From contig CM065879.1 in the NCBI GenBank assembly GCA_033439255.1, positions 3,850,501 through 3,914,500 on the forward strand: a stretch of 64,000 nt of DNA, in the 5' to 3' direction. Below are positions 4,711 to 27,351 of this stretch, in pieces. A program made the translations under genes and the position numbers. The stretch's first letter is position 1, and each line of letters starts with the position of its first letter. Source of the stretch: Hericium rajendrae. Its lineage: Eukaryota > Basidiomycota > Agaricomycetes > Russulales > Hericiaceae. Below the pieces are notes generated by a model that made no database searches, had not been told where the DNA came from, and saw only the letters and a program-made list of their open reading frames with translations.

Positions 4711-4872
4711 AATGCCTGTTATCCCTGCTCCCCCACCCTTACCACCTCACGATACACGCCCGACCATCTCTCCTTCTCCTCCCTCGTCCCCTCCTCTTCG
4801 TTTTCCGTCTTCGCCCATCCCCACTCCGCCTCAGGGTCCTTTCCGCTGGTCCGATGAACCTCAGTCCTCCCA

Positions 4873-6974
4873 ATGAACGATACAACTCCTCCTCCTAGTA
4901 ACAGACAAATTCGTATACTCCAAGCTAATTTAGACACATCCATGGTTGCCCAACAATCCCTCATCAACTCTGATATTCACTTACATTACGATATCATCGC
5001 GTTACAAGAACCTTACGTTGACCCATACCTTAATACTCGCGCCACGTTCAAGTGGCGTACGTTTTACCCACCTAGTCACCGCACCTCCGGCGCTCCCACT
5101 TCCCGCTCCCTCCTCCTGATTAATACGGCTCTCGACACTAACTGTTACTCCCCGCTTTCGGACATCGATCATCCAGACGTCACAGCGGTCCGATGCTGGG
5201 GCGACTTTGGGTACCTCACGATCTTCAATATCTATAACGATGGCAGCCACGATGACACCCTGTCGTTCCTGGATGACTACATGCGACGCCCGGCATACGA
5301 ACCCCCTCTCACAGCAGGACAGAGCTCATATACTGTATGGGTTGGAGACTTCAATCGACACCATCCCGCGTGGGACAATCCGCGAGATGTCCGTTACTTC
5401 ACGCCTCGGAACATCGAGGCGGCGGACTACCTCCAGGACACCTGCAGCTCGCTCGGGCTCGAAATGATACTCCCGGCGGGTATCCCGACTCATCGCCACA
5501 AAGTCACGAAACTGTGGTCTCGTTTGGACAATGTTTTTGCATCTGAGGAGGCGAAGGATCTGTTCACGGTCTGTGACACAGTTCCCGAACTCATGATTGC
5601 TGATCACCTTCCGATCCGAAGCATCATCGATATCCCTCTCCCGCAGGTTGAGCAGCAGATGCACCCGAACTACCGTGGGGCAGACTGGGAATCCTTCACC
5701 AACAAATTGAAGGAAGAGCTGGGCAACATCCGTGCACCGGAAGTCCTGCGCACACCATCGGAGTATGATCGTGCGTGTGCCGTTCTCACATCCACTCTGC
5801 AGCGTACCATCAGCGTGGCCATTCCGCTGTCCAAGCCCTGCCCACATAGCAAGCGATGGTGGAACGCAGACCTCAGTGCCATCAGAAAGGAGCGAAACAA
5901 GCTGAGTAGAACTTCTCACCGCCTGCGAGACGTACCTCACCATCCAAGTCACGAGCAGCTCAAAGCAACAAATGCGCGATACGGTAAAGCCATCCGTGAT
6001 GCCAAAACGCAGTATTGGGAAGAATGGCTCGAAGAGGTGGAAGGCACAGACGTCTGGACAGCGAACCGCTTCCTCACCGAACCGTCCATGGATGGTGGGA
6101 AGACTCGCATACCGACGCTGCAGCGGGCGCAACCCGATGGCTCTACGCGTGCAGTCAATTCAAACGAGGAGAAAAGTCACTATCTGGCGAGTTCCTTCTT
6201 TCCGCCACCCCCCGCTGTCTCCTCTGTGCCTCCCGATGTCGACTATCCTGAGCCCCTAGACAATCCGAAGCCATTCACGCGTGCTCAGATCAAGGGCCAG
6301 CTTGCCAAGCTAAGTCCTTACAAAGCACCAGGCCCCGACGGCATTCCTAATGTCGTCCTTATGCGCAGTGCAGAGCATATTGTGAACCACCTCTACTACA
6401 TCTATGAAGCCTCACTCCGGCTGAACACGTACTATGGGCCTTGGCAAGAGTTCGTCACAGTCGTACTGCGCAAGCCAGGAAAGCCGCGATACGATCTGCC
6501 AAAGGCCTACCGGCCTATCGCTTTGCTGAACACCCTTGGCAAGGTCCTGTCTGCCCTCGTAGCAGAGCAGATCACATTTCTCGGCGAGAAACATGGCCTG
6601 CTTCCATCCACGCATTTCGGCGGACGCCCGGGTCGTACGACCACGGATGCCATGCACCTGCTGGTTCAAACCGTACGAGATGCGTGGCGGCAGCACAAGG
6701 TCGTATCCGCACTGTTCCTTGACATTGAAGGTGCATTCCCAAATGCAGTCACTGACCGTCTCCTTCATAATCTCCGGAAGAGGCGGATCCCCGATGTCTA
6801 TACCGAGTTCATAGGCCGTATGCTACGTGGCCGCAGCACGCGGCTCCGGTTCGATGATTTTCTTTCCGATGCCATAGCGATCACTAATGGTATAGGGCAA
6901 GGAGACCCTTTGTCCATGATTCTTTACCTTTATTATAATGCTGACCTCCTAGACATTCCTCCCGCCCGGTCCAT
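4873..6974 (+). CDS. LINE ORF part 1: APE endonuclease and first half of reverse transcriptase
   Basis: The ATG at 4873 opens a frame with RILQANL and DIIALQEPY, the start of an exonuclease/endonuclease/phosphatase domain, followed by WVGDFNRHHPAWD and ending near SRLDNVF...ADHLPI. A linker leads to the reverse transcriptase: KAPGPDGIPN, YRPIALLN, LFLDIEGAF (motif A) and GQGDPLS (motif B). The codon begun by AT at 6973-6974 is completed by the G at 19385, because the Plavaka-type element starts at 6975. Beyond 6974 the frame runs on into transposon DNA until 7095, which is not real LINE protein. No frameshift or stop is seen in this part. Confidence 0.9.
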
Positions 6975-6987
6975 CTGGAAAAAGTGT
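6975..6987 (+). repeat. Terminal inverted repeat, left end of Plavaka-type element
   Basis: CTGGAAAAAGTGT, exact complement of 19370-19382. The flanking AT makes the match 15 bp if counted. Confidence 0.9.
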
Positions 6988-7191
6988 TTTTTGATTGATA
7001 GCCATGGCTACATTACGTTTCATTACAGAACTGGCACCGGTGTTACTGATAGATTGCCGGTGGGGTATAATAGCCGGTGTTCTGATATTGATTAACGCCC
7101 ATTGTTACGTGTGGTAGCGAGCTTTCTACTATAGCATCTGTAGCGCAGCCTCCAACGAAAGGAAGAAACATGAAATATATTCAAAATTAAG

Positions 7192-10100
7192 CTACCAAAT
7201 TGTCTGATATGCATACATGCTTGCCCAATTATTAACATAGAATGAATGCGCCTGATCCAAGACCTTTTCCGAAGCCCAGGATCTGTCAACCTTCTCCGCA
7301 AAATGTGGGATAAGTTGACAAGATTGTCGAATTTGAGATAACGGTACAATACTTCCCTCTCGTTTCGCTGTTGTGGACACGCTGTACATCATGTGGTTTT
7401 TGTTTGCAGTGGGCTGAAAGGGGGTATACCACTCCACATAAGCCAATTCCTCTTTGGTCCATGACGGCGTAAAGTGGGCGACCTTCTCTGGAAGCTTGAA
7501 GATTACACGAACACGTCCGACACGAGTCCCTAAATAGTCCTATGAATTAGAAAGGTGAGATTAAGGTGAGATTAAAAGGTACCTTCAACACCTGTAGACT
7601 CTGCGCCAGCTGAATACAGTCCAATAATGGTGTCAAATCGAGCTGCCTGTTTACGCGTCGCAGGCTGCGCTTTTACTGTCTCTCGTTCACGATCAGGTGA
7701 AGTCATGACATCTGAGTGTCCAAGCTCTGTACGGGTGAATTTGAAGCTGCGGTATAAGGCAAGATCCGTAAAGGGGAGTGCGCCATCTTGAATTTGCCTG
7801 CGTTTGGCCTTTTCCATGGTAGGAAGAAAATTGTTGATATAGCGCTTGAGAGCTAGGGTGAAACCAGGAGCGTCATGTTCCTTCTCGATAGACAATATGG
7901 GAACCTTGGGAAATGGGGGTCGTTTGGCAACCTGAATGGATGGTGTCGTTTTCAAAGGAGGTGTAGTACAAGGTGTTGTCGTAGCTCCCTCTCGCTGAAG
8001 AAAGGTATCAAACATGGCCACTTTTTCCCGACGAGTGAGCCATTGCGCCATCTGCGGTCGCTCGTCTCGGTGGTTTGAAGCGCGCCATGCCTCCTTAGCA
8101 AAGTCAATGTGAAAGCGTTCAAACATTTCAGTATTGTAGTTATCCGTCGTTCCAAACAGACGGATAGACTCTGTATAGTGAACCAATGAATGAAGTTTAG
8201 GAATATTGAAGTGCTTTCGTATGCCGAGATTTTTCAAGACCTGCCTGTTCTTGAAGAAGTCATCTAATGCCTTCTCCAGATAGCCAAGCGTTGTATCATC
8301 ATGAGTAGGATACTGGGCGATATAGATGAAATCTAAAAGGGCACGAAAAGCGACCAGAAGACCGGAAGGGACTCTCCCAACCAAACAAGCAAGGAGAATC
8401 TTTGCCATGTTCTTGCGCTCTGTTCCGGATATTTGAGAAAGAGCGGAGAGACCATTTTTGAAGTGCCGTACACCAAATGCAGGAGGGAGACGGCGGATGC
8501 GTTCATCAAGTTCCTCGCTAGTCAACAGCTTTCCGCACCATTTGACGACGTACTTGAAAACGCCCTGATGGAGCTGATGCAAAATGTCAGGGGTGATGGA
8601 CCTGTAGATGTCCGTGTGCGGAAAGCCCTCCCAGAAAGGGTGTTCTATGCCTGCCACGCTTTGATCTAAACATGCTTCGCTAAAAGCAGATCTTGACTTT
8701 GTGTTCGCCTTCGAGAGTTTGATGATGTCCAGCGTCTCCTTGTGGCTACGTTTGGTACCTGGCTTGCGAGATTCCAACGCCTTGGGTCTGCATTTAGGGC
8801 AGTCACCGTATTTGGTGCAGGCCACGAGGCACTGCTCTGGGTAATCTGCCACGTATGCTGCAAGAATGGGGTGGATCTTGCGTATTTTTCCGTCACCGCA
8901 AGTGATAGAAATTCCTTTTCTTCCAGCTTCCTTCAATGGCTGGAGAATTAACCGCATGGAATCATGGAAAAGAATCTGAGCGCGGGCCTTGCGCTCAGCC
9001 TTGGTGATACCAGCCTTCCTGATTTTAGCAACTGAGAGATAGCCTATGAGAATGCAAGCTTGCTGAGATGGTCGGCGTCGTATTGATCGTGGAATGTTGC
9101 CCAGCGTGAGGTATACAGGATAGGACGTCTTATTGCCGGTGAACTGGGTAAGCTGTGTTTTGTCGCTGGCAATAATGACCGGCGCAATGCAATGTCCTTC
9201 GGGTATTAGATTCTATAGATGACGAACTGTGAGCAAGCTTCAAGGAAGGAGCAATTAAGCTAGTAACACACCTGAACAGCGCTCCACCATTTACCGGTCC
9301 ACATTTCTTGGTAAATCCTTGTCTTCCGATTCTTATCGGCGAATACTTTGGATGGTCGGTAGACGATATGTTGCGCATGGGTTGGGTTGCCCAAGAGAGC
9401 TTGTATTGCGTCCAAAGGATTTCTGTACTGAACGAAATGCTCCTCATCGAGCCTGTCTGGGAATACGAACGTCTTGGTGAGCCAGTCAGCACGGGCTGGG
9501 ATGGAGTCGACAATATTCAAAAGTTCCCGCGTATTGTGGTACTGGATACCGAGACGTTCTACCGTCTGCAAGATAGATCAGCCCCATTGGGAAGTACAAC
9601 CGTGGAAAGATTGAACGTACCCCAGGGATGGCCAGGAATCGGTCGAACGTGTTGTGACCTATATTTTCTTGAACAGCCCACTTCGCAACCCTCCAGTCCA
9701 TCTCAGATCGAAAAGGAGCCCAGTTTTGGATCTTTTCTGCATCTCCTACTTCGAGATGCTTGCTGCGCATGAGCTGAAAGAACTGACGCCAACTTGCGTC
9801 TAGGGTGGCATCCTCTCCGAACTCCCGCGCTGCAGTGGGATGGATATCTTCTACGCGCAGATCTTCATCGTCATCAAGAGATAAAGCATTCACAGTAGGC
9901 AGCACACGGCGAGAAGCTGAGGCCATAGTAGAAGGTCCCGGATCTCCTCCACCTGCAGACTCAGGCACCGCAGAAGAATCTGGTCGCGAAAGAGGTAAAA
10001 ATCTGTAGAAATCTTCATTAAAGGCTCTCAGTACTTGTGCGGGGTCATCGGAAATGTCCTCATCCTCATCGTCATCAGATCCCACTTCATCCCTCTCTGG

Positions 10101-10304
10101 CGTGCGCAAAAGGGTCTCTGGGATATCCCATTCTGTCTGCCAGACCTCCCTCTTCTTCCCCATGTTGTATTCCTTGCAAGATTTTGAGGTGCGTTGATGG
10201 TAGTAAAGGCCCGTTACCGTGTCGAACCCGCCTCCACAATTTCCGCACCGCAGATCGGTCGCGATGGCGGACCCATCGAGGGAAAGTCGGCGACGTTTGC
10301 CCAT
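7192..10304 (-). CDS. Plavaka-type transposase
   Basis: Four exons on the minus strand fit without a frameshift: 10304-9621, 9565-9272, 9212-7583 and 7529-7192, with GT-AG introns of 53-59 bp, giving about 981 residues. The N terminus has a Cys/His finger (CGNCGG, H, C near residues 20-45) and then an acidic linker. The middle has Plavaka family landmarks: NPLDAIQALLG, TGKWWSAVQ, ASDKTQ with NKTSYPVYLTLGNIP, GDCPKC, and TPDILHQLHQGVFK. The likely catalytic acidic residues are Asp in ASDKTQ, Asp in TPDILHQ and Glu in NTEMFERFH, an RNase H-like triad inferred from family pattern. The last exon holds the usual C-terminal AYVEWYTPF block. It should cut and join the element's ends. The reading is complete, so the gene may still be functional. 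The last acceptor (7530) was chosen to keep frame. Confidence 0.85.
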
Positions 10305-10393
10305 TAACTAATACCATATTAGTCCCCCCCATTAACACGTTAACATGGACAACAGGAACTTACCTCAACAAAGTATACTGCGATAATGAGGGA

Positions 10394-10433
10394 GCGTGGA
10401 AATTGTTTGGCTACACCCAAACAATTCCCACGC
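10394..10433. repeat. Hairpin upstream of the transposase gene
   Basis: Arms 10394-10410 and 10417-10433 pair over 17 bp with one mismatch (A at 10400 where G would pair) around a 6-base loop. The arm core GTGGAAATTGTTTGG resembles the arm of the palindrome at 13230-13277 (GTGGGAAACGTTTGGCTG), suggesting a shared element-specific site. Confidence 0.75.
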
Positions 10434-10908
10434 ACAGAAAAGCGGTGTCCCAATGAGTTCGTAAGTGCAAAAGCATAAAAATTGTTCCAGGAGCACTCAC
10501 CGGTGAAGGCACCCAAACTCAATAGGACGGACAGGACGGGGTGAAGGTCGTTGGGGGGAAAGCCAAACGATACTGGCATGGGACCTGCATGCACGGCATC
10601 TGCACGCACGGTGCCTTCAACATGTGGCACATGATAATCTAGAATTCTAAGAAGGGAAACAGTCAGCATAAGTAATATGGCAAACGTCACTTACCACAGA
10701 ACAGCCGTAAGTTGTGCCCTTGAGTCCAGCATGCACTTGGGGGTTCATTTCTGCCCAGAACTGCATTCCTTGACCGTTCTGATTGGCTCCCTGCCACAGC
10801 ACAATGCTATAACTGTCATAAGATGGTGACGCTGCCGTGGAGGAGCGACGATGAGGGCAAGACCATCTGCAATGCGTACTTACGAGCGTTTACAGCATTG
10901 AATGCGCG

Positions 10909-11038
10909 CAAGTCGTGAGGTGTTAGACGCGCTTCCAGCGGGCCGCACGTTCCGTGCATTTTTGTTACCCATATTTAGGCAACAAAAACGCACGGAACGC
11001 GCGGCCCGCTGGAAGCGCGTCTAACGCCTCGCGACTTG
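10909..11038. repeat. Large palindrome with 61-bp arms
   Basis: Arms 10909-10969 and 10978-11038 pair with five mismatches around an 8-base AT-rich loop. All five differences are transitions, and in four of them one arm has CG where the other has TG or CA. It sits about 150 bp upstream of the Ulp1-like start. It could be a transposase or regulator binding site, or a transcribed hairpin. Confidence 0.85.
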
Positions 11039-11188
11039 GGCATGTTCGACTTCAAGCAACGTCTCATTCTCCCTCCACCGTTCTTCCTCAACGCCAAACC
11101 GTAAGTCAATCATTTTTTATCTTCAAAAAGGTGACTCACATTCTTGCACATTCCATGCAATGCATTTTTAGAGCTGGTAGAACATACT

Positions 11189-13110
11189 ATGGCCACTTCG
11201 AGCCGTTCTCGAACGTCGAAGGGCTCTCGGTCAGAGTCAAGGCGCGGTGTCCCGTACACGGCAGAGGAGCGGGCCAGGATGGATGCGAGGAATGCGAAGG
11301 TCAAAAAGTGAGTACCACATCCTCTCTCAGCTGACACAAATAGCTTACCTTTCTTTGCCGTTGCCGTTCGTTAGGGACAAGCAGGCGGCGAAGTGGGCTG
11401 ATGGCTCCATCTTCGTCGTCTCAACGTCCGAGGCTATAGCAGCACACGCCCGACGACTTGAGACAACCACTCATATGCGGGTTCGTCTATCTCGCCCCCG
11501 CGCCCCGTCCCTCATGGCAGTTTCCCATACCCTGCTTTCGTCTCAGCACGGACCACCTCCCAACATCCTCCTTTCTCCCTCTGTCGCTTCGCAAGTTCTG
11601 AAATTTTTCGATGCGTTCCTCGAGTGGCTCGACTCGGCTGAGCTACAATGGCTGTGGGCCTGCGCCGATCTCGACAACGGCGTTGTCTCTGAGCAGCGCA
11701 CCATTCACAACCAGGTCTTAACCCTGCTGCAAGATGGAACAGAAGCCAGCTATGCGCTCGTTCTCGCCCTCCAAACCAGCTACCAGGAGGCCGTTGTCCT
11801 TGGCTTAAGCCATCTCGGCAGCTTTGAGGCCCGACTGTCTCAGTTGAAGATGGGGAATGAGCAAAGGGCCCTACTGCGCACGGTTGGCAGCCGCTTTAGG
11901 GATGTGGTATTTGGTTTGAAGATGTGGAGTATGGGCGTGCGGGTCGTGCTTATCGATTGGAGAGATGCAGGAGGTATCAACGTACAGAACGTTCTGCGCC
12001 AGGTACGTTGCCTTTGTCCTTTACTTTGCTTTAGCTAACAGCAAGCCCTTTTTTTGGGTCTGGAAGACTGTGAAAGGACAAGTCGTCGACGGTAATTTCA
12101 TTGTGGAAGTGCATAGCGTTCTCGATGGAAAAGTTTGCACCGACGACTGTAAGGTCGCCGATGTCGAACGACTCCGTCCAGGGCAGATGCTCAACCACGC
12201 TGTCATTAATTACTTTGCTTACAAGTGGAGCCACAAATACCGTGACAGCATTGTGCTGCGTACAGAGTTCATGAGTCTCCGGTTTCCTGTCTTGCCCCCT
12301 CCTAATCCCGCTCTCATCTTTAAGTACCGGGGATTGCAGGTAAGTGAAGTCAGTTTGCTCTGGGTGTACGGTGCCTGACGTACATCCATTGAACAGGTTG
12401 TGTCTAGGTCCGGCATCATTCCGTGGAAACGAATACTCATTCCGGTGCACCTCCCGTCGCAAACACATTGGGTAGCAGCTGCAATCGATTTTGAACGTCT
12501 TCGCATCGATGTGTACGACAGCCTACCTGGTGTGCGCGAGGCAAACAAGGGCCTGAAGTTGGAACAACAGGCCCATTGGCCCATCGTTGCTCGTCTCAAG
12601 TCCTTCGTCAACCACCTGTTTCACGCGCTCGGAAGATATCATGGTATTCGCATCTCTAACTATTGGCCTACATGGGTACTACGCCCCCATGCATCTGTAC
12701 GTATCGTGTACGCACAGCAATTCTTTGCTGACGTGCTTCTGTAATTTCACAGTGTCCCACCCAATCCAACGCTGTTGATTGCGGTGTTTTCGCCCTGTTG
12801 ACCATGTTCCATCTGCTCCACGGCGGCCTTCAATCGCGGAGCGTCCCTGCCGAGTTTGCTTTCACCTTTGACAGGCCGCGCGCTGGACGGCGTTCGACTT
12901 CTCCTGATGGAGGAGCTGATTCAGGACAGGGAGGAGGGCCGGAGCTTTCAAGGTGGACAGCAGGTCGACATCACGCAGATGGAGGCCGCTATCGTGGATG
13001 GCTGGGACGATTCGGACGTCGAGCTGCTGGAGATGACGGACGGGGACGGCGGGGACGGCAGGAGCGAGAGCGGGAGCGGGAGCGAGTCTGCTGTTGAGGT
13101 TGTGGGGTAG
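11189..13110 (+). CDS. Ulp1-like cysteine protease (C48 fold), transposon cargo
   Basis: Exons 11189-11307, 11375-12002, 12046-12339, 12397-12696 and 12753-13110 join through GT-AG introns. The C-terminal half carries a Ulp1 catalytic pattern in order: His in THWVAAAIDF (codon 12466), Asp in VYDSLPG (codon 12517), Gln in PTQSN (codon 12762) and Cys in DCGVF (codon 12780). Ulp1 enzymes cut SUMO or related tags at nuclear sites. Such proteases are common companions of CACTA/Plavaka-class transposons, where their target is not settled. The N-terminal 350 residues are not recognised. The intron 12003-12045 is short and its acceptor uncertain. Near 12850 the better C-terminal reading (acidic, ending at 13110) lies in another frame, so an unseen splice or base error is likely there. 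Confidence 0.75.
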
Positions 13111-13229
13111 GTGCCGGTGCGTCAGTACGGCCCCCCTCCCTTTGTATTAGACTTGGCCTGAGATAGACTTCTTCAATCACATGTGTTTTGAACCTGATTA
13201 TTTAGAAAACGCGAAACTGAGGAACTTTT

Positions 13230-13277
13230 GGGGCCGCGGGAAACGTTTGGCTGCAGCCAAACGTTTCCCACGGCCCC
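13230..13277. repeat. Palindrome between the Ulp1-like and Tet-like genes
   Basis: Arms 13230-13253 and 13254-13277 are complementary with one mismatch (C at 13237 facing A at 13270, again a CG/CA difference) and no loop. It lies 130 bp before the Tet-like start codon and shares its arm core with the hairpin at 10394. Confidence 0.8.
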
Positions 13278-13406
13278 CGCGTAACGCCCGTCGCATCGCG
13301 TCGTCTCGCGTCGCCTAGCCAGCAGCCTTGAACGTGCTTCCACATCCCGCACGCCCCGCACGCCCTCTGCTCATCTACGCACTCCCCGCGCCTGGCCTCT
13401 ACCTCG

Positions 13407-16316
13407 ATGAACGCCGTCCCGATTCCCTCGGACGTGCTGCAAGACGTGTTGCGGGCTCTTACGCGCCTTGAGGCCGTAGAGTCGCGGGCTTCGGAACATT
13501 CGAGCAGCGGTACGTCGCGGCTCCTTCTGCAACTCACCCGTCTGGCCCAGGAAAGCCGTGCGTGCGGCTCTCCTTGCTCCGACAACCGCGTCACCCGCCC
13601 TACAGAGGCTGATCCCGCCCGCCCACATACGCCGCCGTCAGGCCAGCACGCGCTCTCCCCCTTCAACTCTCCGAGCCCGCTCACGCCGCCCCCACGCACA
13701 CCTCCGTTCAACCTGCACGACCTGAGGGACTCGAGCGAGCCCGATTCTGATGGGGAACCGGAGATTGAAGGGGACGGGCAGCCGCGGTTGGGTGAGGGCG
13801 GCGCGGGTGGAGGAGGTGGTGGAGGTGAGGGCGGCCCCGACGTCCAGCACCTCTGGCACGATGGCTGCCGTCGAGGGGGAATTCCGGTTTGGGTCATCAA
13901 CAACGACCCAGCCTGGGTCGTGACCAGAGACGCGCGGGGCTTTATCGCCATGCTCGGCGCGTGGGGCCACGTCGGTATTGGCGTGCGTCGGCCGCGGAAG
14001 GGAGCTTCTTCGTCTGGGCGTCGTCTGACGCGCTGGATTTTAGCAGACTGAAGCAATGGGCGCAAGATGTTCGCATGGAGTTGGAAGGGGGGAGAGGCAG
14101 CCACGCTGGGGGGGTTCCAGGCAGCCCTGCGAGATTGCTGGTTGATCACCAGCAGGCAAGTCGGGGTCAGCTTTGCCACCATGGTAAGCTTCATGACCCT
14201 TGTGGTGAGAGTTGAGAAGTGAGTACCTAGGTCCTGGTTGAGCACATACGCTAAGCTCTTGTTTAGCCTCCAGAAGCAAAACCGGCTGCCCGACAAGCTC
14301 GCATTTTGGAGACGTTTCGTGGAAGCCGAATCGGATTTGCCTGTCACCTATAGTACTTTCCTTGAATGGCACAGCAAGGGCAGCAAATATGCTGCAATTG
14401 CATCTGGAGGTGAGTTGTTATTTTGTTCGCGTGGCATTTTCAGCGTCCACTGTCGCAGTGGCTCATTCAATTTCAGGATCTATCTACGCCCTGGTACTGA
14501 TAGCGGGCCTCAAGCTACGGGACAAGCTCCATCATATTCAGGACCTGAGCCCCAACATCATGACCAATCTGCTGCGTGTTCCGCCGCCGGGCACGCACGA
14601 CATCGGAGTGGTGGTCCGCACAAAAATCATTCCGGCGGTGGCATATCTCAGCCGGATCCTTCCCATGAGCCTTGCGGGTCTGTTCTCACCAGAGGACCTG
14701 CTACCCTGGAACGTTCCCCCCTCCATGGACTGCTTTAATTTGCAGTTCTCTGACGGGTTTTTTGAGATTATACCTTTTAAGTGCGTCTTATCTCCGTTTC
14801 CGTTTTCCTTTATTCTTGGCTAATTCAATTTTCAGTAATTTTCGCCCCTTGTCTCGTGATAAAGAGGCATGGGCGCCTTGCTCGGCCAACGTACCCTGGG
14901 CATCGACATCGTTTCTCACCTTACAGGAGGTTGTGCGACGTCAATCAGGGATCTCTCATTTTCCCTCCTCGTCCGGCCTGTTCTTACCGACACCAGAGCC
15001 TTCCAACCCTTCCACGCCATCTGCGTCCTTTCTTGATATTTCTGAGGACGACAGGGTTCCCATGGACTTAGATCCTTCAGGTCCAGCCCTAATCATTTCA
15101 ACCGGATACCAGCACCGTCACCCGCAAAATGTGGCAACATCTGCAGCTGTGGATCATGAGGAGAACTACCAGTGGACGGAGATGCAGCGAACACTTGCTG
15201 CAGCATGTCTAGAACACCCGGCGACGTCAGTTGAGGACCTATCCTCCAAGGTTGGTAGGCTGTTTGGCTTAAATATGATTCATTCTGATTTTGTTTTTCG
15301 AAGCTGGGTATGCACTACGTAGGTGGGATCCGACGAGATCCCACTTCCTATGTGGCTTTCTCCACGAACATTATTGAGTGCATACTTTTGTAGCCACTTT
15401 ATATATCTCTCCTGTCTTTCTGATATATTTTTACAGGGATAACGTTCGAATCCAGAATGACGACGGAAGCCTCATGGCTTTCATTTGTACATCTCTACCC
15501 TCCCATATCCGCGACAATTTGCACTCTGGTCTTAGGGCCTGTGTTGGGGAGATCCTGTACAGTCGGGACTCCAGTGCTGAGGGAGAGGCGTTGAAGTTCG
15601 GCACCTACCATTTTTCGTGGTATAATCGACATGCGACCAAGGTACACCTTTGTGATACCCTGCTTTTTTCCTTAATATTTTCTTAATGACTTTAACAGGG
15701 CACGAACGCCCCTCCTGGTGTCCAACCTCTGTATTTGTCTAGGGATGGCACATCTCGAACGAATCGCACGCAGATGACGGCCTATCCCTCCACGGACATG
15801 CAGAAGTACGCTACTACTTTGGAAAAGATGGAGGTAATATTCCAAGAGCTTTTTCAATGGATCGAGGCAAAGGTATGCACATTTGTGCGCGGATAAAATT
15901 GTGGTTGCTAACAGCTCCTATTGTAGCTTCTTGATTGTTTGCCGTGGGAGTACATGCAGCTGTCTGTGTCCTCAAAGGACCTCCCAGGCAATGCGCAATC
16001 AATTGTACGCCCCTTCGTAGGCTTTGTCATCAACATCAACGTCGCCACGAAGGGCCATCGAGATGACAAGGACGAATCTCACTGTCTTGTCTTACCTATT
16101 GGTGCATTTACCGGTGGCGCTCTAGTGTTCTATGAGCAGGGCGTGGTGATTGAAGCTCATCACGGTGATATTGTTGTTTTTAATTCCAAGGATACCACTC
16201 ACTTAAACCTCCATTATTGTGGCGAGCGAGCGTCCTTCGTCTTTCACACAGATGCTGCTATGGCAGAGTGGACAAGGAATCGCAATGGTTGGGACGACAA
16301 CAGAACATTTTTTTGA
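13407..16316 (+). CDS. Tet/JBP-like 2-oxoglutarate Fe(II) dioxygenase, transposon cargo
   Basis: Supported exons: 13407 to about 13980, about 14054-14218, 14267-14409, 14477-14780, 14836 to about 15318, 15437-15641, 15699-15872, 15927-16316. The catalytic core is in the last exons: metal-binding HxD in GHRDDKDE (codons 16056 and 16062), the GG turn in FTGGALVF, the distal His in TTHLNL (codon 16200) and the 2-oxoglutarate Arg in GERASFVFHTD (codon 16227). This is the Tet-like oxygenase pattern of agaricomycetes; relatives oxidise 5-methylcytosine or thymine in DNA, so a role in removing methylation from the element is the natural guess. The N-terminal part is rich in Pro, Ser and Gly and unrecognised. 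Around 13980-14055 the join is unresolved: frame 0 meets a stop at 14049 and either an intron or a missing base is needed. Confidence 0.75.
15323..15344. repeat. Perfect short hairpin in an intron of the Tet-like gene
   Basis: GTGGGATC (15323-15330) and GATCCCAC (15337-15344) form an 8-bp stem with a 6-base loop, just inside the inferred 118-bp intron starting at 15319. The GTGGGA start recalls the other palindromes of the element. Confidence 0.6.
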
Positions 16317-16564
16317 TACATAATTTCACTCTTTACTTACCGTACTCGTACTCAATATCTCTTAATCCAACAGCTTTTTGTTTGTGCAAGTGAAATTTCT
16401 AGAGTGTGCTAGCGTGTGCGAACCAGCAGGGAGTGGCAAAACATTTCTCACCCTTCTCTAAGCGAGGACGGAGACAGGATACCGCGTAACCAAGCGCCGC
16501 TTCATCTTCGTCCAAGCCACGTAGCATCCGTCTTCCTCCTCACCGCTCCCCTACTCCTTCCTCT

Positions 16565-18878
16565 ATGGCTAGCACCAGGTCCAAAACAAAGGGTATCCAG
16601 TCCAAGCCTGTTTCTGCACCAACCACCAGGGCTAAGAACCCAGTGCCCGCATCAGGGAAGAACGCGGCAAAGGTGAGTGACCTACTCGTACAGTTTTGAG
16701 ATAATAAAAGCTTACCATTTGTATCATATCGTATGCAAGGACAAGACCAAGAAGAGCGCGGCTGCTGCTGCTGCTGCCGTCAAGGCAGCAGCTATAGCCA
16801 AGAAAGCTGGAAACAAGAGAGAACGTGATGAGGTGTCTGACAATGAGGAGCCTGTCCCCACGCCAACAAAGCCCAAGCCCAGGCCGGTCAAGAAGAAGAA
16901 GACTCAGGCAGAGCTGGCGGAGGAGGAGCGCGGTAGGTTCCGATTTACCATCGCCAGACGGTACTGACGTCGATCTAACCCAATTTTCTTATTCCACATT
17001 GAAACGATCAGAGCTAGCAGCACGCACCATGGATCTCGTCCATGCCGAAGCCAATAACGACGGCGATGACGATTCCAACCAGGATGAGGAGAACAACGCA
17101 GACAGCGACGTTGGTGTAGAAGATGGCCTCCGCACTGACTGCCATGGGGGTCTAGATGATGAGGAGAAGGCGTTAGGGGATGACCTGGATGACGGCGGTG
17201 AAGACGACGAAGACAGTGAGTTTATACTTTGAACGTTTAACTTGAGATTGACTGACCGTGTTTTTAGGCTCAAACTGTGAAGACGAATCTGATCGTCCGG
17301 TACAAGAGGACAGCGACGAGTCAGTGGTCGATGTAGAGGAGAGAGACGAAATTGAACATGGAGAGAAGGTGTCAGGCGCTAAGAGCAGTGATCAAGTGCC
17401 AAAGAAGGCTAACGTTAAGGGACGTAAAGGACCCTTCAGCGGCGCAAAGGTATGTCCTTATGAAGGCTATAGACTGTTTTTATTACTCATTGTTCATCAT
17501 TTGTCGTTGAAGCTTATGGCTGTTGCCGAAGAGCTTTCTGCCAAAAGTGGTCGGTAAGTCTTTTTATCAAGAGCGTGTTTCTTTTGATGAGATATTTCTT
17601 CGTAATAGGAAGAAGTGCGGAACCTCAGGTGTACAATTGCAAGCTGCATCAGACGTTGCGCCAGATATAGCAGCATTGTTGGGCGGCATACCTCTACGAC
17701 CCGGGTCCTGGCCTCTACCCCAAATAGAGCGCGTCTTTGGCGATCTAGCAGGACAGATCAGTGCCATGGGCCGCCGCTTTATACGCGTAATGGTTTGTAC
17801 TGAAGATGCTTTTCCCATGTCCACGCAGTCCAAGGATAAAGCCTTACGGACAGCCCTGAAAAGGGCTACAGCAACCAGCGCACTGTTGCAGCCTGAGTAC
17901 GACAAATTGTGCAAGGCCATGGCCAGTGATGCCAGTCCTGCGCTACAGCTGGAATTTGACAAAGTAACGTCTTACGTCAGTACTTCAACTTCGTACTTCA
18001 ACTTCTACATGACATGTCCGCTAGCTAATATATATATATATTACAGATATGGACTGGTGTTGCGCAAGTACGTGGTCAGATCAAGATGCAGGCTGTCGAA
18101 GCTTGCAACAATTATTTTGGGCTGGAGAAGCTACGCGCTACTGCTGGTGCAGACACTGTGAAGGACGTGGTAACGTGGCTGTTGTCTGGTCCCACTCCGG
18201 TCTTCACCTTTGGAGACATAGACGTAGAGGTATGTGTATATTGTGACCGATAATATGTGCTAATCTGTGTGCTATTTTAGGCAAAGACTTACAATGAGGA
18301 GAAGGCGCTGAAACTTCCAGTGGTCGTCACGGTTATAGCAAAACAGTGGTACGGTAAGAAAGGCGACGGAAACCGTTCACTGTTTGCAAAAAACTATCAA
18401 GAGTTCAATATTCCTCTGTTGGCTGTGGTTTTTACAGCAGTACGTGTCATATTTTCTGTGAGATATTTGACTGAGATATGACCAGATTGAAAACGCAATT
18501 GTTGAGTATCAAGAAGGATATAAAAAGGAGATAGAATTCAGTGATACCCTGTTTTACAGCAGGTACGTCGTTCGTGTTTACCAGCCTTGTTGTACTGATT
18601 TGATTTACTTGATATTAGGTACATATACTACCAGGATCTATTCTCAGATTTAAAAGAGCAGATGCCTGTATATTGGAAGCGAAAGGTTGTGGGTAAATTA
18701 CGAGAGGATGTCCTGTAAGTTCTTCTTCCGACGTCTGTTCATCTACTCAATTATTCTTTCTTCTAGGACAAGCGTCGGGAGGATTTGTAACAATAAAGTT
18801 TATGATTCCAAAGCAGGGGCGGGGCTAAATTTTGCGGCTCTCGAAGCAAAAGCTATTGCTGAAAGCAGGGATCAATAG
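16565..18878 (+). CDS. DUF6532-like transposon-associated protein
   Basis: Eleven exons fit in frame: 16565-16672, 16740-16930, 17012-17215, 17268-17449, 17513-17553, 17609-17975, 18047-18229, 18281-18439, 18486-18562, 18619-18714 and 18767-18878. Residues 1-110 are basic with an alanine run and KPKPRPVKKKK, a likely nuclear localisation signal. Residues about 120-230 are strongly acidic. The C-terminal half has WLLSGPTPVFTFG, NIPLLAVVFTAIENAIVEY and FSDTLFYSRYIYYQDL, which match the DUF6532 pattern seen in many basidiomycete proteins of mobile-element context. The function is unknown; a nuclear DNA- or chromatin-associated role is inference from charge and context. No frameshift is seen. Confidence 0.7.
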
Positions 18879-19369
18879 AACACGGCTTCTTTTCGTACTT
18901 AGACATAGACTGCAATATCATGCTGGTGCATCCAGAAGTTTACTTTTAACTATTGAATGATCTATTTCTCAAGATGAACATTCGTACAAGAGCCTCTGAA
19001 CTGGTAACAACAAGATATATCCTATAGCAAGCATTTAATTCCTATACCAATAAAATCTATACTATAACAAGTATCTAATATCTATACCTAGAAGAATAAT
19101 ACTGTCTTACATTATATTAACATGAACAGTACAAGACTTCACATATATATACTATAGATCTACGGTAGCTACAGTAGCTGGACCATATAGCTACAGTAGA
19201 TACCGACATCTACAGACGCTATAGATCACTACAGACTGACTATAGGCTGATACAGACCACTACATGTACTTGTAATAAAGACCCACCTATCAACAGATGC
19301 TACAGAAAATATATAATCTATTACAGCTATTGTAGATCATATTTTCTACTGTAGGCTAAAATAGTACAG
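18879..19369. repeat. AT-rich subterminal region with CTACAG repeats
   Basis: This stretch holds no gene. Between about 19160 and 19360 it has at least five CTACAG motifs plus one CTGTAG, partly as GCTACAGTAG. The left end of the element has one CTGTAG near 7138. Such subterminal repeats usually bind the transposase. Confidence 0.55.
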
Positions 19370-19382
19370 ACACTTTTTCCAG
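19370..19382 (-). repeat. Terminal inverted repeat, right end of Plavaka-type element
   Basis: ACACTTTTTCCAG, exact complement of 6975-6987. The next bases AT (19383-19384) duplicate 6973-6974. Confidence 0.9.
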
Positions 19383-19384
19383 AT

Positions 19385-20571
19385 GTCGCGCACAGAGCGT
19401 GCTATGGCATTTGTCGATGATGGTATTCTCATTGCCATTGGGCCCACGTTCATTGAAACACACCTCACGCTTCATAGCATGATGACACGGGCGGGCGGGG
19501 CCGTTGACTGGTCCGTCGAACACAATTCCAGATTCGAATTCAGCAAATTGGCCCTTATGGACTTCGCTCCCATTGGTAGTCAGAAGGTAGGATTACCTCT
19601 GCAGCTGCCCTCGGTACTGGTCCCGACATCTGCCAGCACAAAATATTTGGGGGTTATGTTCGACTCTCATCTGACCTGGAAAGTGCAGAGCCAATACGCA
19701 GTCAAGAAAGGTACCACCTGGGTACTGGCTCTGCGCCGTCTGGCGCGACCATCTCGTGGCCTCACAGCGCGACACGTGCGCCAGCTTTACATTGCTGTAG
19801 CGATTCCAAAGATGCTTTATGCTCTTGACGTCTGGTGCACGCCAGCGCACCCGTCGCCCACCGGCCATGGCCCTCGACGTGGCTCGATCGGCTTCATCAA
19901 TGCCCTCTCCAAAGTACAGCGCCTTGGGGCCTTAGCAGTAACGGGGGGTCTTCGGACATCTCCACGCGTTGCCTTGGACGCGCATGCACACCTCCTTCCT
20001 ATGGAGTTCCTAGTCAACAAGATTTGCCACCAGGCCGTGTTAAGACTCGTCACTCTCCCACCCCCCCATCCCCTCGCCCCACTCGTTACGAAGTGCGCGA
20101 AGAGATTTGTCCTTCGACACCGCGCGCCAATGCACCACCTCTTTAACATTTTCTCCATTTCCCCTGCTGCATACGAAACCATCCCGCCCGTCTGGCATGA
20201 TCCGGCCATCCAGTTACCTTACACCACTGAAATCACCGCTGACCGACAGGCTGCCATTGATGCAGAAGGTGATTGCACAGACGTCATCTGCGTCTACTCA
20301 GATGGATCGGCGCACAACGGCGGCGTGGGCGCAGCCGCCGTACTGATCCGCGACGGGCGAGCGCAACGAACACTGCGCTACTTCCTTGGCCCAGACTCTG
20401 AACACACGGTGTTCGAGGCAGAGTTAGTGGCTACCCTTCTGGCCATGGAGCTGCTGCGCATGGAGGGCAATGCCTCTAAGGCGACGTCCATTGCCGTAGA
20501 CAACCAGGCGGCCATCCATGCATTACAGTGCACCAAGCCACGGCCAGGCCACCACCTAGCTGCAGCCTTCC
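19385..20571 (+). CDS. LINE ORF part 2: second half of reverse transcriptase and RNase H start
   Basis: Continues the frame left at 6974. It has FVDDGILIA (reverse transcriptase motif C, the catalytic Asp pair), KYLGVMFDSHLTW, and the thumb region YIAVAIPKMLYALDVW. RNase H follows, with VYSDGSAHNGG (first Asp), EAELVATLLAMELL (Glu) and AVDNQAAIHAL (Asp). At 20571 the Gypsy element breaks the RNase H domain before its last His/Asp motif. No stop or frameshift is seen. Confidence 0.9.
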
Positions 20572-20994
20572 TGTCACGGATTGCTCCATTTCTCTCCGCC
20601 TTCTTCTCTGCCATCAAGGCATCGCGTCGGTCATGTGCTCCAGCAGCCCCATCACATGTTCACTTCCTCACATGACCTGGGGCTATCCTTCACCCATGCC
20701 CTTGTTCCCCTTTGGGACATCCTATTGTTCTCCCTCCCATTGTTCTCCTTTTGGCCACCATTGTTCTCACTCTATTGTTCGACCCGTTATGGTGTCCATT
20801 GTTCTTTTCCCATTGTCGTCCCAGTACTTATAGGCTCCCTGTCGCTCGCCTATTTCCCTAGATTGTCCATTTCGTCTGTACCGTACTGTACCTCCAATAC
20901 AGGTCACTGCGCTGCTAGTCGCTCTCTGCTCTCTCGCTCCCATCATCGCTGGTGACTTGGGTGGTTCTCTGCTGTCTACGACCGAGTCTTGACA
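20572..20994 (+). repeat. Gypsy 5' LTR
   Basis: 423 bp, TG...CA ends, same sequence by eye as 27248-27670. The apparent 124-residue ORF inside it is an LTR artefact. Confidence 0.93.
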
Positions 20995-22233
20995 CCTGGA
21001 CAATCTCTCATACACCCGCCTCACCTCCCTACTATCGCCCATCATACCTTTCTTCTTTGAACCCTTCACCGCCGACATCTTCACCGAATCCCGACATCCA
21101 TTCCATCAACCTCATCTCCCCTTTCCCATCGCCAACACCATCGAGGGTAGTGCACTCATCCCCCTCCTCCGCTATTGTGCTGTGAAGCATTGGGAAGCCG
21201 AAGGAGTTTGGTTTCGATTGAGGTCGTGGAAACCACGTGCAGGTGCTATCTCCATTGCCTTATACGTTCGAATTCGAGTTTCCTTTGACGTCGACTTGCA
21301 AGAATTCACGTTCGGTGCCTCGGATATCGCTTACCACTGTCGCCAACCCAACCGAGGATCCCCTGCAAGTATCCTACCATCGACCTCGTTCCCCTTTTGC
21401 ACACTAGGTCTCTTCACCCCCGAACCCTCACCTGAGCCTGTGTGGGCCAGAGAACGCCTCGGCCACCGATTCCTCAGAAACCCGTACTCGGACCCCCTGT
21501 ACCCTCGTGCTCTTGGTCGTCGCCCAGTTGCGGCTGACTTCTTCTAGACCTCACCATTGATCCCACCGACCCCCGTTTCCAGACCACAGAACCATACCCA
21601 CTCGGCGTCTTCGCCTCGCTCGACGAATACTTCATCTACACCCTTTCTGGCATCGTTCGAATAGACTTCGTCACTCCGGACGAGGACGACGACGGTCCCG
21701 CACAGTGGTACTTCGCCGATCGTGACGACCAGGCAGACCTCGAGCTTAACGACTTCGACGTCGCAGCTACAGAACACCGTCGCCAACACCCCGCTACCCC
21801 GCCGCTTCCCACCGTTGCCCTTCCTAGTGCAGATTCTCCCCCTGCTCGCACCACCCCACTTGTTGTTCCCCCAGGTATTACCTTCAACCCGGTAACCAAC
21901 AACTACTACGCATACCGCTCCGACACCAATCGGCTTGTAGTCAGTTGGAGACCCAGCCTCGTAGAAGAAAGTGACCTGTGGTTTTGGCAGGCCAGTACCC
22001 TCTTCTTAACCACTGCAGAACTCGCACTCTCTCAAGCAGTTATAGAGAATCTCGCTCAGCAACAAGCTACCCGCCTCGATACCCTTCGGGCCCCACCACC
22101 ACCACCTGTTTCGACGCCTACCCCAGTACCAGTCCCCTCACCTGCTCCACCCGTTGCCGCTGTTGCATCGACATCCACCGTCAACGTCAACCCAACCATT
22201 GCCACAGCCCCCCCTGTTCAGCCATCCATCGAC
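20995..22233 (+). CDS. Open frame upstream of gag in the Gypsy element, possible gag extension
   Basis: The frame from about 20993 to 21547 is open without an ATG and reads as ordinary protein (for example LIPLLRYCAVKHWEAEG). At its stop (21545-21547) the neighbouring frame opens at 21538 and runs without a stop into gag, including DEYFIYTLSGIVRIDF and a Pro/Thr-rich linker before MSNPEIG. One missing base near 21538-21547 would fuse all of this with gag, adding about 400 residues. Alternatively gag starts at 22234 and this is a leader. The likely primer-binding site lies just after the LTR (CCTGGACAATC at 20995), but the matching tRNA was not identified. Confidence 0.4.
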
Positions 22234-23223
22234 ATGTCCAACCCTGAGATCGGCGTCAAACCTGCTCCCTTTGAGGGAGATCGTTCCAAGTCCAAGGAAT
22301 TCCAGCTGCGTATTCGCTTATTCCTTCGCGCCAACTCCACCCGGTATAAAGATGATACCGCCCAGATCTCCCTCTTCCTCGACCTCTGCCAGGGCCCTAT
22401 CGCCGGCCAGTGGGCCACCCAGCGCGTCGAGGAGATCCTTGAGGATGACGATCTCGTGGCTGCAAAAACATCTCCAGCTCATGTTCCCCGCTACGCCAAC
22501 CTCACCGCCCTTCGAACTCGCTTCAACTTAGACTTCTCTCCCCTTGACGACTCTAAGGATGCCTCCCATGCTATCCAGACCCTCCAGATGGGTACGCGCC
22601 CGGTAGTCGACTACATCACCGAGTTTGAGTCCTTCGCCCCTCGCACCGGCTACAATGACGTGGCCCTGATCGACTGGTTCCTGCATGGCCTCAACAGCGC
22701 CCTGCGCGATGATTGCCAGCGCAGCTACCCCACGCCCACCACCCTGGCTGAGTGGAAGGTGAGGGCCCGTGACAGGAATGCTGCCTACCTCATGCGCACC
22801 CGGTTCCAGAGTCCCCGCCCTACAACTGGGCGCACCCCGGTGAGCACTCGCTCCCCTCAGTCCACATCTACTGGCCGATCCCGCACAGTCGCTGCTACAG
22901 GTGCCCCACTGTCCAAACTCTCAGAGCCTGACCGTGAGCGCCTCAGGCGTGAGGGCGGTTGCTTCCGCTGCCGCCAGAAGGGCCATGGCTTCCGCGACTG
23001 CCCCCTCAATGCCGACTCCAACCCCCGTGCCCCAACCCCTCGTGTCCGAGCGCTAGAAACCGGCTCTGCCCCGGGAGTAGCTCCAGAAGATGCAGCCGCC
23101 GCCCTTGCTGTCCCCGCCATCAACAGGTCCATCGCCGACTTATCGTCGCAGTTGAAGGACTTGAGCGAGGAAGAGAGGGAAGAGGCAAAGGCTGCATTAA
23201 AGGATATGGTTGAGGGTTTTTAA
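22234..23223 (+). CDS. Gypsy gag (capsid and zinc knuckle)
   Basis: 329 residues starting MSNPEIG. The N-terminal two thirds is a retrotransposon capsid domain (PFEGDRSKSKEFQ, MGTRPVVDYITEFE, WFLHGLN). Near residues 245-260 is a CCHC zinc knuckle of form CFRCRQKGHGFRDCP, the nucleic-acid-binding part. The frame ends at TAA 23221 within GGTTTTTAAAG, where the pol frame lies at -1. Either ribosomal frameshifting or one missing T would give a gag-pol fusion. Confidence 0.88.
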   Translation: MSNPEIGVKPAPFEGDRSKSKEFQLRIRLFLRANSTRYKDDTAQISLFLDLCQGPIAGQWATQRVEEILEDDDLVAAKTSPAHVPRYANLTALRTRFNLDFSPLDDSKDASHAIQTLQMGTRPVVDYITEFESFAPRTGYNDVALIDWFLHGLNSALRDDCQRSYPTPTTLAEWKVRARDRNAAYLMRTRFQSPRPTTGRTPVSTRSPQSTSTGRSRTVAATGAPLSKLSEPDRERLRREGGCFRCRQKGHGFRDCPLNADSNPRAPTPRVRALETGSAPGVAPEDAAAALAVPAINRSIADLSSQLKDLSEEEREEAKAALKDMVEGF

Positions 23224-26200: not shown

Positions 26201-27351
26201 CCTTGTAACGAGACCATTACCAGTGATGGCACAGTCGACATCCTTTTTGACAGGATTTATCGGAACTACGGCCTCTGGGAACGCCTCATCTCTGATCGTG
26301 GCCCACAGTACGCAGGCAAAGTCATGCGTGGCGTCTTTGACAAACTTGGTATCAAGTCCTCCCTCAGCACCGCCTATCATCCACAGACCGATGGCGAGTC
26401 AGAACGCGTCAATCAAGAACTCGAGCAATTCCTTCGTACCTTCTGCAACTACCGTCAGGACGATTGGGTCCAATGGCTCCCTTACGCTGAGTTCTCGCAC
26501 AACCACCGTATCCACAGCGCCACTAACCGAGCTCCATTTGAAATGCTCCTCGGCTATATTCCCACTGCCATCCCCACTGTCAACCCCACATCGTCTACAC
26601 CCGCCATCGAGGATCGTTTCCGTCACCTCGAACAACTTCGCACTGAGGTCCAGGCCAGCCTTCAAACAGCTGCTGATCTCATGAAGCGCAACAACCAGGA
26701 CCATATGCATGACACCATCCACTTCCAGGTTGGCGACAAGGTCTGGCTCGATGGCAAGAACATCAAAACCACACGACCCAAAGCTAAGCTTGCTGATCGA
26801 CGCCTGGGACCTTTCGAAATCACTGATGTCCTGGGCCCAGTCTCTTATCGACTGAAGCTACCACCCACCTGGCGTATCCACCCGGTGTTCCACACGTCCC
26901 TGTTGTCCCCTTACAAGGAAACGATGCTCATGGTCCCAACTTCCCTGCACCACCACCTGACCTTGTGGAGGGCGAGGAAGAGTACGAAGTTGAGTCTGTC
27001 CTCGATGCTCGTCTCACTCGGAACAAACGCGGCATTGAATATCTCGTCAAATGGGCAGGCTACCCTGATTCAGAAAATCAGTGGCTTTCACGTACCTCCC
27101 TTTCCAATGCCCATGGTGCAATCACCGACTTCTACACCCGCCATCCGCATGCACTCAAGGCTCCCAATCTTCGTGGACTCATCTACCTCGATCCCGTCCA
27201 TGCTCATCACGCACTCCAGGCGAAAGTGCGTCTTAGAGAGGGGGTGATGTCACGGATTGCTCCATTTCTCTCCGCCTTCTTCTCTGCCATCAAGGCATCG
27301 CGTCGGTCATGTGCTCCAGCAGCCCCATCACATGTTCACTTCCTCACATGA
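23223..27351 (+). CDS. Gypsy pol: protease, reverse transcriptase, RNase H, integrase, chromodomain
   Basis: Read in three frames, each -1 to the previous: 23223-24743, 24740-27247 and 26965-27351. Protease has ALLDSGAEG and ILGTDWL. Reverse transcriptase has KKDGKLRPVQDYR and, after the first break, YMDDILIF. RNase H has DYATGG and IWTDHKNLEYF. Integrase has the HHCC finger (H...GH, CATCQATK) and DDE parts in TSDFIVKLP, DRGPQYAG and ESERVNQELE. The third frame holds a chromodomain (YEVESVLDARL, YLVKWAGYPD), which in this clade guides insertion to histone-marked chromatin. The breaks lie in the T5 run 24702-24706 and near 26931-26935; one added base repairs each. The last frame runs into the 3' LTR. 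The domain set is complete. Confidence 0.85.
27235..27247 (+). promoter_or_regulatory. Polypurine tract of the Gypsy element
   Basis: AGAGAGGGGGTGA directly before the 3' LTR at 27248 is the expected plus-strand primer site. Confidence 0.75.

Follow-up and report, generated by a model that had tools for sequence, protein, structure and literature searches.

A 12.4-kb Plavaka-group DNA transposon in Hericium rajendrae carrying genes for a Tet_JBP-like oxygenase, an Ulp1-like protease and a DUF6532 protein

The closest described systems are TET-carrying transposons of the Plavaka group. According to the accessible part of Kojima 2025 (PMC12730594), TET-carrying PlavakaB elements of Agaricus bisporus and Gymnopus confluens have CATCA..TGATG ends and target site duplications (TSDs) of 2–3 bp, and Plavaka is among the carriers of the TET type with an HxE motif (PE type). 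A Plavaka-TET association in Serpula, Fomitopsis and Trametes was implied by Iyer et al. 2014 (as cited in PMC12730594), but TET-carrying Plavaka were not found in these genera by Kojima, so far as that part of the paper reports. Here we describe a DNA transposon in a stretch of 64,000 nucleotides of Hericium rajendrae (contig CM065879.1, positions 3,850,501 to 3,914,500), hereafter the window, whose own numbering is used below. The element shares with the published TET-carrying PlavakaB, as described there, a Plavaka transposase, CATCA..TGATG-like ends, a TSD of 2–3 bp and an internal TET/JBP-type oxygenase. It differs in that the oxygenase is of the PE type (HxE) in those elements and has HxD here, and in two further linked genes, encoding an Ulp1/SENP-like cysteine protease and a DUF6532 protein. 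The general association of TET/JBP genes with transposons, which the first-pass annotation of this DNA had given as known, is already in print. The present locus provides complete, bounded elements for the Plavaka-TET association, which had been implied earlier but, in the accessible text, confirmed in only two Agaricales species, and it offers a concrete example of an element that may be able to alter the very epigenetic mark by which it is targeted.

The element spans positions 6972 to 19385 (12,414 bp). It had been proposed to have sharp ends at 6975 and 19382; the ends are sharp, as judged from perfect terminal inverted repeats (TIRs) and the TSD, but lie 3 bp further out on each side. The left TIR, CATCTGGAAAAAGTGT (6972–6987, plus strand), and the right TIR (19370–19385, minus strand) form a 16-bp perfect inverted repeat, and comparison of the flanks identified the dinucleotide TC as the TSD (left copy at 6970–6971, right copy at 19386–19387). 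The insertion target was an open reading frame (ORF) of a long interspersed nuclear element (LINE) on the plus strand, by reading an endonuclease-reverse transcriptase, of which the 5' part lies at 4858–6971 and the interrupted 3' part at 19386–20675. When the flanks were rejoined minus one TC, the LINE frame was open for 1133 codons. With 0, 1, 3 and 4 bases dropped, it was open for 736, 715, 735 and 714 codons, and with 5 bases dropped, which gives the same frame less one codon, it was open to 1132. Because removal of the element together with one TC restores the frame, we conclude that the element was inserted in the LINE with a 2-bp duplication. A LINE paralogue (C7:3087870-3088109) matched the joined site over 240 of 240 bases with 75% identity and no net insert.

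The searched genome comprised 46.8 Mb in 19 contigs. The TIR, with one mismatch or fewer, was present at 67 places, 30 in forward and 37 in reverse orientation, compared with 1 and 0 for a reversed-pattern control, and the right terminal region (19167–19385, plus strand) was common to at least 20 other genome places in a DNA search. The termini of the window element, CATCTGG..CCAGATG, are one base per end off the published CATCA..TGATG consensus, and some related elements have CATCAGG at one end. The profile, these termini and the 2- or 3-bp TSDs agree with a lineage-B Plavaka. Judged from sequence, the element is a cut-and-paste Plavaka-group DNA transposon with PlavakaB-like ends and a 2-bp TSD that moves as a 12.4-kb four-gene unit.

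The transposase gene (7192–10304, minus strand; exons 9621–10304, 9272–9565, 7583–9212 and 7192–7529) reads through the four exons proposed for it and encodes an open protein of 981 aa. The spliced protein matched the Pfam family Plavaka (PF18759) over positions 1–325 of 325 with 377 bits (E 1e-112). A KDZ identity was not found, as the transposase matched Plavaka only in Pfam, and the oxygenase exon and the nearest KDZ match among those listed were separated by about 154 kb. The protease gene (11189–13110, plus strand) has exons at 11189–11307, 11375–12002, 12067–12339, 12397–12696 and 12753–13110, and its spliced product matched Peptidase_C48 with 40 bits against a cut-off of 20.7 (E 5e-10). 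Its His and Asp aligned with those of SENP1, and its Gln and Cys (CPTQSN..DCG) were located by reading.

The oxygenase gene (13407–16316, plus strand) was modelled with exons at about 13407–14218, 14267–14409, 14477–14780 and 14836–15250, a small exon without firm bounds, and exons at 15438–15641, 15699–15872 and 15927–16316; the end of exon 1 (14218) was set by eye. The spliced domain matched Tet_JBP (PF12851) with 37.5 bits, above the curated cut-off of 34.9 (E 1.8e-9), and with 31.5 bits, under this cut-off, as a single exon. HxD (GHRDDKD, codons at 16056–16064), the distal His (THLN) and Arg (GERAS) were seen by reading. The DUF6532 gene (16565–18878, plus strand) has 11 exons and encodes an open protein of 569 aa, which matched DUF6532 at E 2.4e-27 after splicing and whose N-terminal half is, by reading, acidic and Lys-rich. 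All modelled introns are GT-AG and 46–83 bases long. Thus, the profile search returned all four families named in the first-pass annotation, and the catalytic residues it had listed for the oxygenase and the protease are in place.

Three full-length copies had exact TIRs at both ends, namely the window element, C4:1119862-1132277 and C2:25000-37414, and each was flanked by a 2-bp TSD (TC, CA and CA, respectively). The C4 and C2 copies were found through family searches; the places returned by the DNA search are other than these two and the window. The sampled sequence amounted to about 3.0 kb (2,988 bases) for the C4 copy and 1.2 kb for the C2 copy; both sisters were near-identical to the window there, with 6 and 3 substitutions, respectively, and short indels. 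The oxygenase of the C4 sister was open through all modelled downstream exons, the protease of the C2 sister had lost the catalytic His, and the matched transposase frames covered 419 aa in C4 and 462 + 181 aa in C2 versus 546 aa in the window. No claim is therefore made for a single copy open in all four genes.

Diverged copies were also present. At C9:546.6-559.9k, four gene regions were matched in the same order with 65–72% identity; the right TIR of this copy had 3 mismatches, and the left TIR was not found at 3 mismatches. A copy at C4:347.4-359.2k was 99.8% identical to the C9 copy over 11.8 kb. The gene set is kept at C14:65-75k, with a weak DUF6532 match (23.7 bits). C18 retains the right half only, with the HxD of its oxygenase lost (HHN), and left-half pieces remain on C7 and C5. 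The absence of the cargo from other copies, considered as a candidate, was ruled out by the copies carrying it in the family and protein searches: the C4 and C2 copies have the same ends, and the diverged C9 copy shares the cargo order. Other sequences related to the oxygenase were found at C8:1583k, where a protease relative is located about 3 kb off, and at C7:392k and C2:2234k, where Plavaka was absent within 15 kb among the matches listed. Two shorter elements have the same ends, one of 4.0 kb on C10 with a 3-bp TSD (CGT/CGT) and one of 3.5 kb on C1, for which a TSD was not seen. Both contain repetitive ORFs, are gene-less by reading only, and are taken as non-autonomous relatives.

The linkage of the genes was evaluated across the genome. 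At six loci belonging to three diverged families, Plavaka and Tet_JBP matches were 7.05–7.67 kb apart and DUF6532 was 1.9–5.0 kb from Tet_JBP. Peptidase_C48 was found at 3.5–3.9 kb in five of the six, and the protease of the sixth (C2) was found by protein search. The 46 Tet_JBP matches in the genome comprised 36 that had a KDZ match, among those listed, at 6 kb or less, 6 linked to Plavaka and 4 near neither. DUF6532 was located 10 kb or less from Plavaka at 9 of 15 loci, and such proximity amounts to 3.1% of the genome. Since four of these nine loci had no nearby Tet_JBP match, DUF6532 may accompany Plavaka more generally than the oxygenase does.

A protein search in other fungi, with 8000 candidates scored, gave 22 homologues of the oxygenase; going by genus, we take them to belong to Russulales, Boletales, Polyporales, Agaricales and other orders. 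The closest came from Hericium and Dentipellis, a result that may be due to the history of the transposon as well as to its host. Gene models of Serpula and Suillus contain the oxygenase and DUF6532 in one model, and in a Hericium gene model the oxygenase runs, by reading, into a stretch like the N-terminal DUF6532 protein of the window. Protease homologues were not found at E 1e-3 in the protein search with 8000 candidates scored. As homologues of the oxygenase occur in Serpula and Fomitopsis, this may be the association that Iyer et al. 2014 had implied (as cited in PMC12730594); the present case differs in that whole elements are shown, together with their ends and TSDs.

We compared the coding sequences of the window and C9 copies. 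The proportion of nonsynonymous differences (pN) was 0.105 in the oxygenase domain, the slowest-changing stretch compared, 0.197 in the middle part of the oxygenase, 0.216 in the transposase, 0.277 in the protease and 0.257–0.263 in the DUF6532 protein. The ratio to synonymous differences (pN/pS) was 0.15–0.47 over aligned codons only, and is used here for ranking and for the deficit of amino-acid changes only; the C9 codons compared contained zero stops. These values indicate that all four genes have been under purifying selection between the window and C9 families, the oxygenase domain most, and the conservation supports a view of the three extra genes as a selected, long-kept cassette rather than as hitch-hikers. 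It is very improbable, almost negligibly so, that they are functionless passengers caught between the ends. Such passengers would fit the description of TET gene transfer between transposons as passive (accessible part of PMC12730594), and the cargo of the window copy is frame-broken, twice in the oxygenase at G-rich places near 14.0–14.1 kb (N-terminal part) and once in the protease, past its catalytic core, near 12.88 kb. These breaks are either assembly errors or real damage, and the C4 and C2 sisters are open in the fetched stretches. The passenger explanation is opposed by the single gene order in three diverged families, by the adjacency of oxygenase and DUF6532 in gene models of three genera, and by the lower number of amino-acid changes than of silent changes in all cargo genes.

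The type of the oxygenase was determined with an alignment of 23 rows, of which 7 were cut short or misaligned at the HxD site. HxD was present in 15 of the other 16 rows, including the window, HCN in one and HxE in none. The PE type was thus ruled out by HRD in the window and HxE in 0 of 16 rows. The AG type (CcTET-like) was ruled out by the PDB search: the oxygenase sequence had zero matches up to E 10 and its alignment profile had three, all chance-like, whereas a profile of four other genomic Tet_JBP stretches, three of them within 6 kb of KDZ and one (L049) not, matched CcTET at 9e-28. A profile comparison of the oxygenase with KDZ-linked oxygenases gave 80.6% probability with HxD, His and Arg aligned. 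The element has in common with TET-carrying Kyakuja (KDZ) and CcTET a transposon-borne TET-like oxygenase in Agaricomycetes, but the transposase is another one, and only the KDZ-side profile has a PDB match. As for the protease, the accessible part of PMC2836005 places Ulp1 proteases on Mutator elements or as the C-terminal domain of the Ginger1 transposase; the Ulp1-family protease is common to those elements and ours, and here it is a separate gene in Plavaka. The main text of PMC12730594, as far as it was accessible, makes no mention of Ulp1, C48 or DUF6532. In the literature searched, which was largely at title level with most subscription papers outside, DUF6532 was merely listed with its role not discussed, no Zisupton with Ulp1 was found, and a description of the four-gene Plavaka set was not found.

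We analyzed the CpG content of the copies as the ratio of observed to expected CpG (CpG o/e). The window element had a value of 0.90 and the C9 copy one of 0.85, compared with 1.05 for the remaining window sequence (21–64 kb). The broken copies had values of 0.63 (C7 pieces), 0.42–0.47 (C5 pieces) and 0.15 (C18). CpGs of the window were changed to TpG or CpA at 41% of sites in C18, 32% in C5 and 17% in C7, and the same changes at other C/G sites were found at 12.5%, 9% and 6.6%, respectively; the reverse comparison for C18 gave 12.7% versus 6.8%. In the full C9 copy, CpG changes (17%) and those at other C/G sites (13.5%) were nearly alike. Five DNA_methylase-family matches were present in the genome, the best at E 8.4e-10. 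The strong CpG transition decay of the broken copies, together with these matches, makes CpG methylation a plausible target of the oxygenase of the element; the broken copies point to the mark from which they probably suffered.

The transposase DNA of the TET-carrying lineages (window, C9 and C14) had a CpG o/e of 0.80–0.90 in all three cases. TET-less Plavaka loci, defined by zero Tet_JBP matches within 15 kb, were sampled as the eight best Plavaka matches and eleven hand-picked loci with mostly open frames, and 17 of these 19 had values of 0.16–0.66; one low locus, on C8, may be a decayed TET-carrying element. As a separate observation, the TET-less pairs L057/L063 (C13, C11), L007/L056 (C7, C4) and L058/L064 (C9, C5) are 97–100% alike with a CpG o/e of 0.25–0.42, and their fetched slices are open except L007; apparently, these are young elements that are already CpG-poor.

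From these data, we propose a mechanism in which the host would methylate CpGs of the element and the oxygenase would oxidize 5-methylcytosine (5mC) on the element DNA, which would keep the genes readable and the ends usable. The protease may act on the transposase or on silencing proteins by removing SUMO-type marks, and the DUF6532 protein might be an accessory DNA- or transposase-binding factor. Self-demethylation by the element is plausible, and the whole explanation, namely a Plavaka transposon with a selected cassette and this mechanism, we consider moderately probable. Alternatively, the oxygenase and protease could serve transposition itself, through binding of modified ends, transposase turnover or repair, rather than escape from silencing. 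For transposon-borne proteases of the Ulp1 and OTU types, roles of this kind are proposed in the accessible part of PMC2836005. We regard it as improbable here, because Tet_JBP lies within 10 kb of only 6 of 81 merged Plavaka positions, a set that takes in fragments and broken copies, and because recent copies are among the remaining positions, which indicates that the chemistry does not need it.

Several observations weigh against the mechanism proposed above, that is, a selected cassette with self-demethylation. All four protein functions rest on sequence, and activity is demonstrated for none. The oxygenase and protease frames of the window copy are broken, the N-terminal part of the oxygenase has changed faster than any other stretch compared (pN 0.337), and synonymous divergence (dS) between the window and C9 copies is near saturation. 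In the sampled bases, the C4 sister differs from the window by six substitutions, each of them a CpG transition and five of them losses in the sister. CpG transitions also account for 14 of the 16 mismatches that separate the C9 copy from the one at C4:347-359k, and for two of the three substitutions relative to the C2 sister. Since CpG transitions dominate the differences among near-identical copies, young copies are not fully protected. At C14, the CpG o/e of the oxygenase slice is just 0.63, and the transposase slice lacks an open frame. Two of the 19 TET-less Plavaka loci keep CpG (0.92 and 1.15), 15 of the 17 loci with low CpG group in a single clade when aligned, and the gene-less C10 and C1 short elements, at best protected in trans, also keep CpG (1.07 and 0.98).

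Much of this would be expected if the high CpG content of TET-carrying copies reflected youth and lineage and the oxygenase barely affected element methylation. The CpG losses in the sampled sisters, the CpG-keeping TET-less loci and short elements, and the single clade behind most low values all fit this explanation, which is a serious possibility a little short of even. Youth alone is insufficient, since several low-CpG TET-less loci are 96–100% alike with open slices, and the transposase DNA of C9 and C14 has diverged by about 30% from the window yet retains a CpG o/e of 0.86–0.90.

The substrate is a further point of doubt. The DNA_methylase matches fail to separate DNA from tRNA methyltransferases, and the position of CcTET Asp337, located by counting, is Cys in this oxygenase; Asp337 is reported to be essential for 5mC in the accessible part of PMC12730594. 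The oxygenase might be needed by the element but act elsewhere, on N6-methyladenine (6mA), thymine, RNA or protein, or produce a lasting mark, for example hydroxymethylcytosine. The constraint on the gene shows use, not substrate, and its sequence is far from any solved TET. Precedents are the 6mA activity of CcTET and the different product of CMD1, and other activities are left open for distant TET types (all from the accessible part of PMC12730594). This explanation is possible but unlikely; the CpG-biased decay of broken copies points to 5mC as the available mark, and HxD, His and Arg align with the KDZ-linked oxygenases. Of the four-gene, self-protecting unit suggested in the first-pass annotation, the stable gene set is supported; a simple form of self-protection is opposed by the CpG transitions among sisters, the TET-less and gene-less elements that keep CpG, and the unmatched Asp of CcTET.

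Returning to self-demethylation, a wider reading is conceivable, although we doubt it. The oxygenase would represent an uncatalogued HxD type of transposon TET-like enzyme in Russulales, Boletales and other Agaricomycetes, traveling with the Plavaka cassette (a link that is assumed there), and would mark one of two ways to live with CpG methylation: an eraser with normal CpG, versus the shedding of CpGs by most TET-less Plavaka. The odds of this two-way scheme are lowered by the short gene-less elements bearing these ends, as they keep CpG too.

Relatives of the cargo genes were also observed elsewhere in the genome. The two best Tet_JBP matches (C1:1699412-1705935 and C12:2182408-2201909) have Peptidase_C48 6.1 and 19.5 kb away, respectively, with KDZ and Plavaka absent within 50 kb among the matches listed; possibly, these loci represent another TET-protease element. 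A multicopy protease relative, whose N-terminal part is distantly similar, occurs away from Plavaka at C1:4282k, C12:2050k, C6:2127k and C5:1410k/1552k/1625k, and is perhaps another mobile carrier of this protease. DUF6532 lies 3.6–10.1 kb from Plavaka with Tet_JBP not near at C7:2179.6-2180.1k, C1:623k, C11:39k, C12:1351k and C12:1983k.

Within the element, a subterminal CTACAG motif was not significant, as the same top 6-mer count was obtained in 98 of 300 shuffles. A large palindrome (10898–11049) occupies the spacer between the divergent transposase and protease genes, and a further one lies at 10394–10433. The palindrome in the protease-oxygenase spacer (13227–13280; half-site GTGGGAAACGTTTGG) is kept at the same place in the C9 copy, and palindromes resembling it are present in short elements that share the ends of the transposon but are gene-less. 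Beside the LINE, positions 21538–27247 of the window contain, by reading only, ORFs like those of a Gypsy-type long terminal repeat (LTR) retrotransposon.

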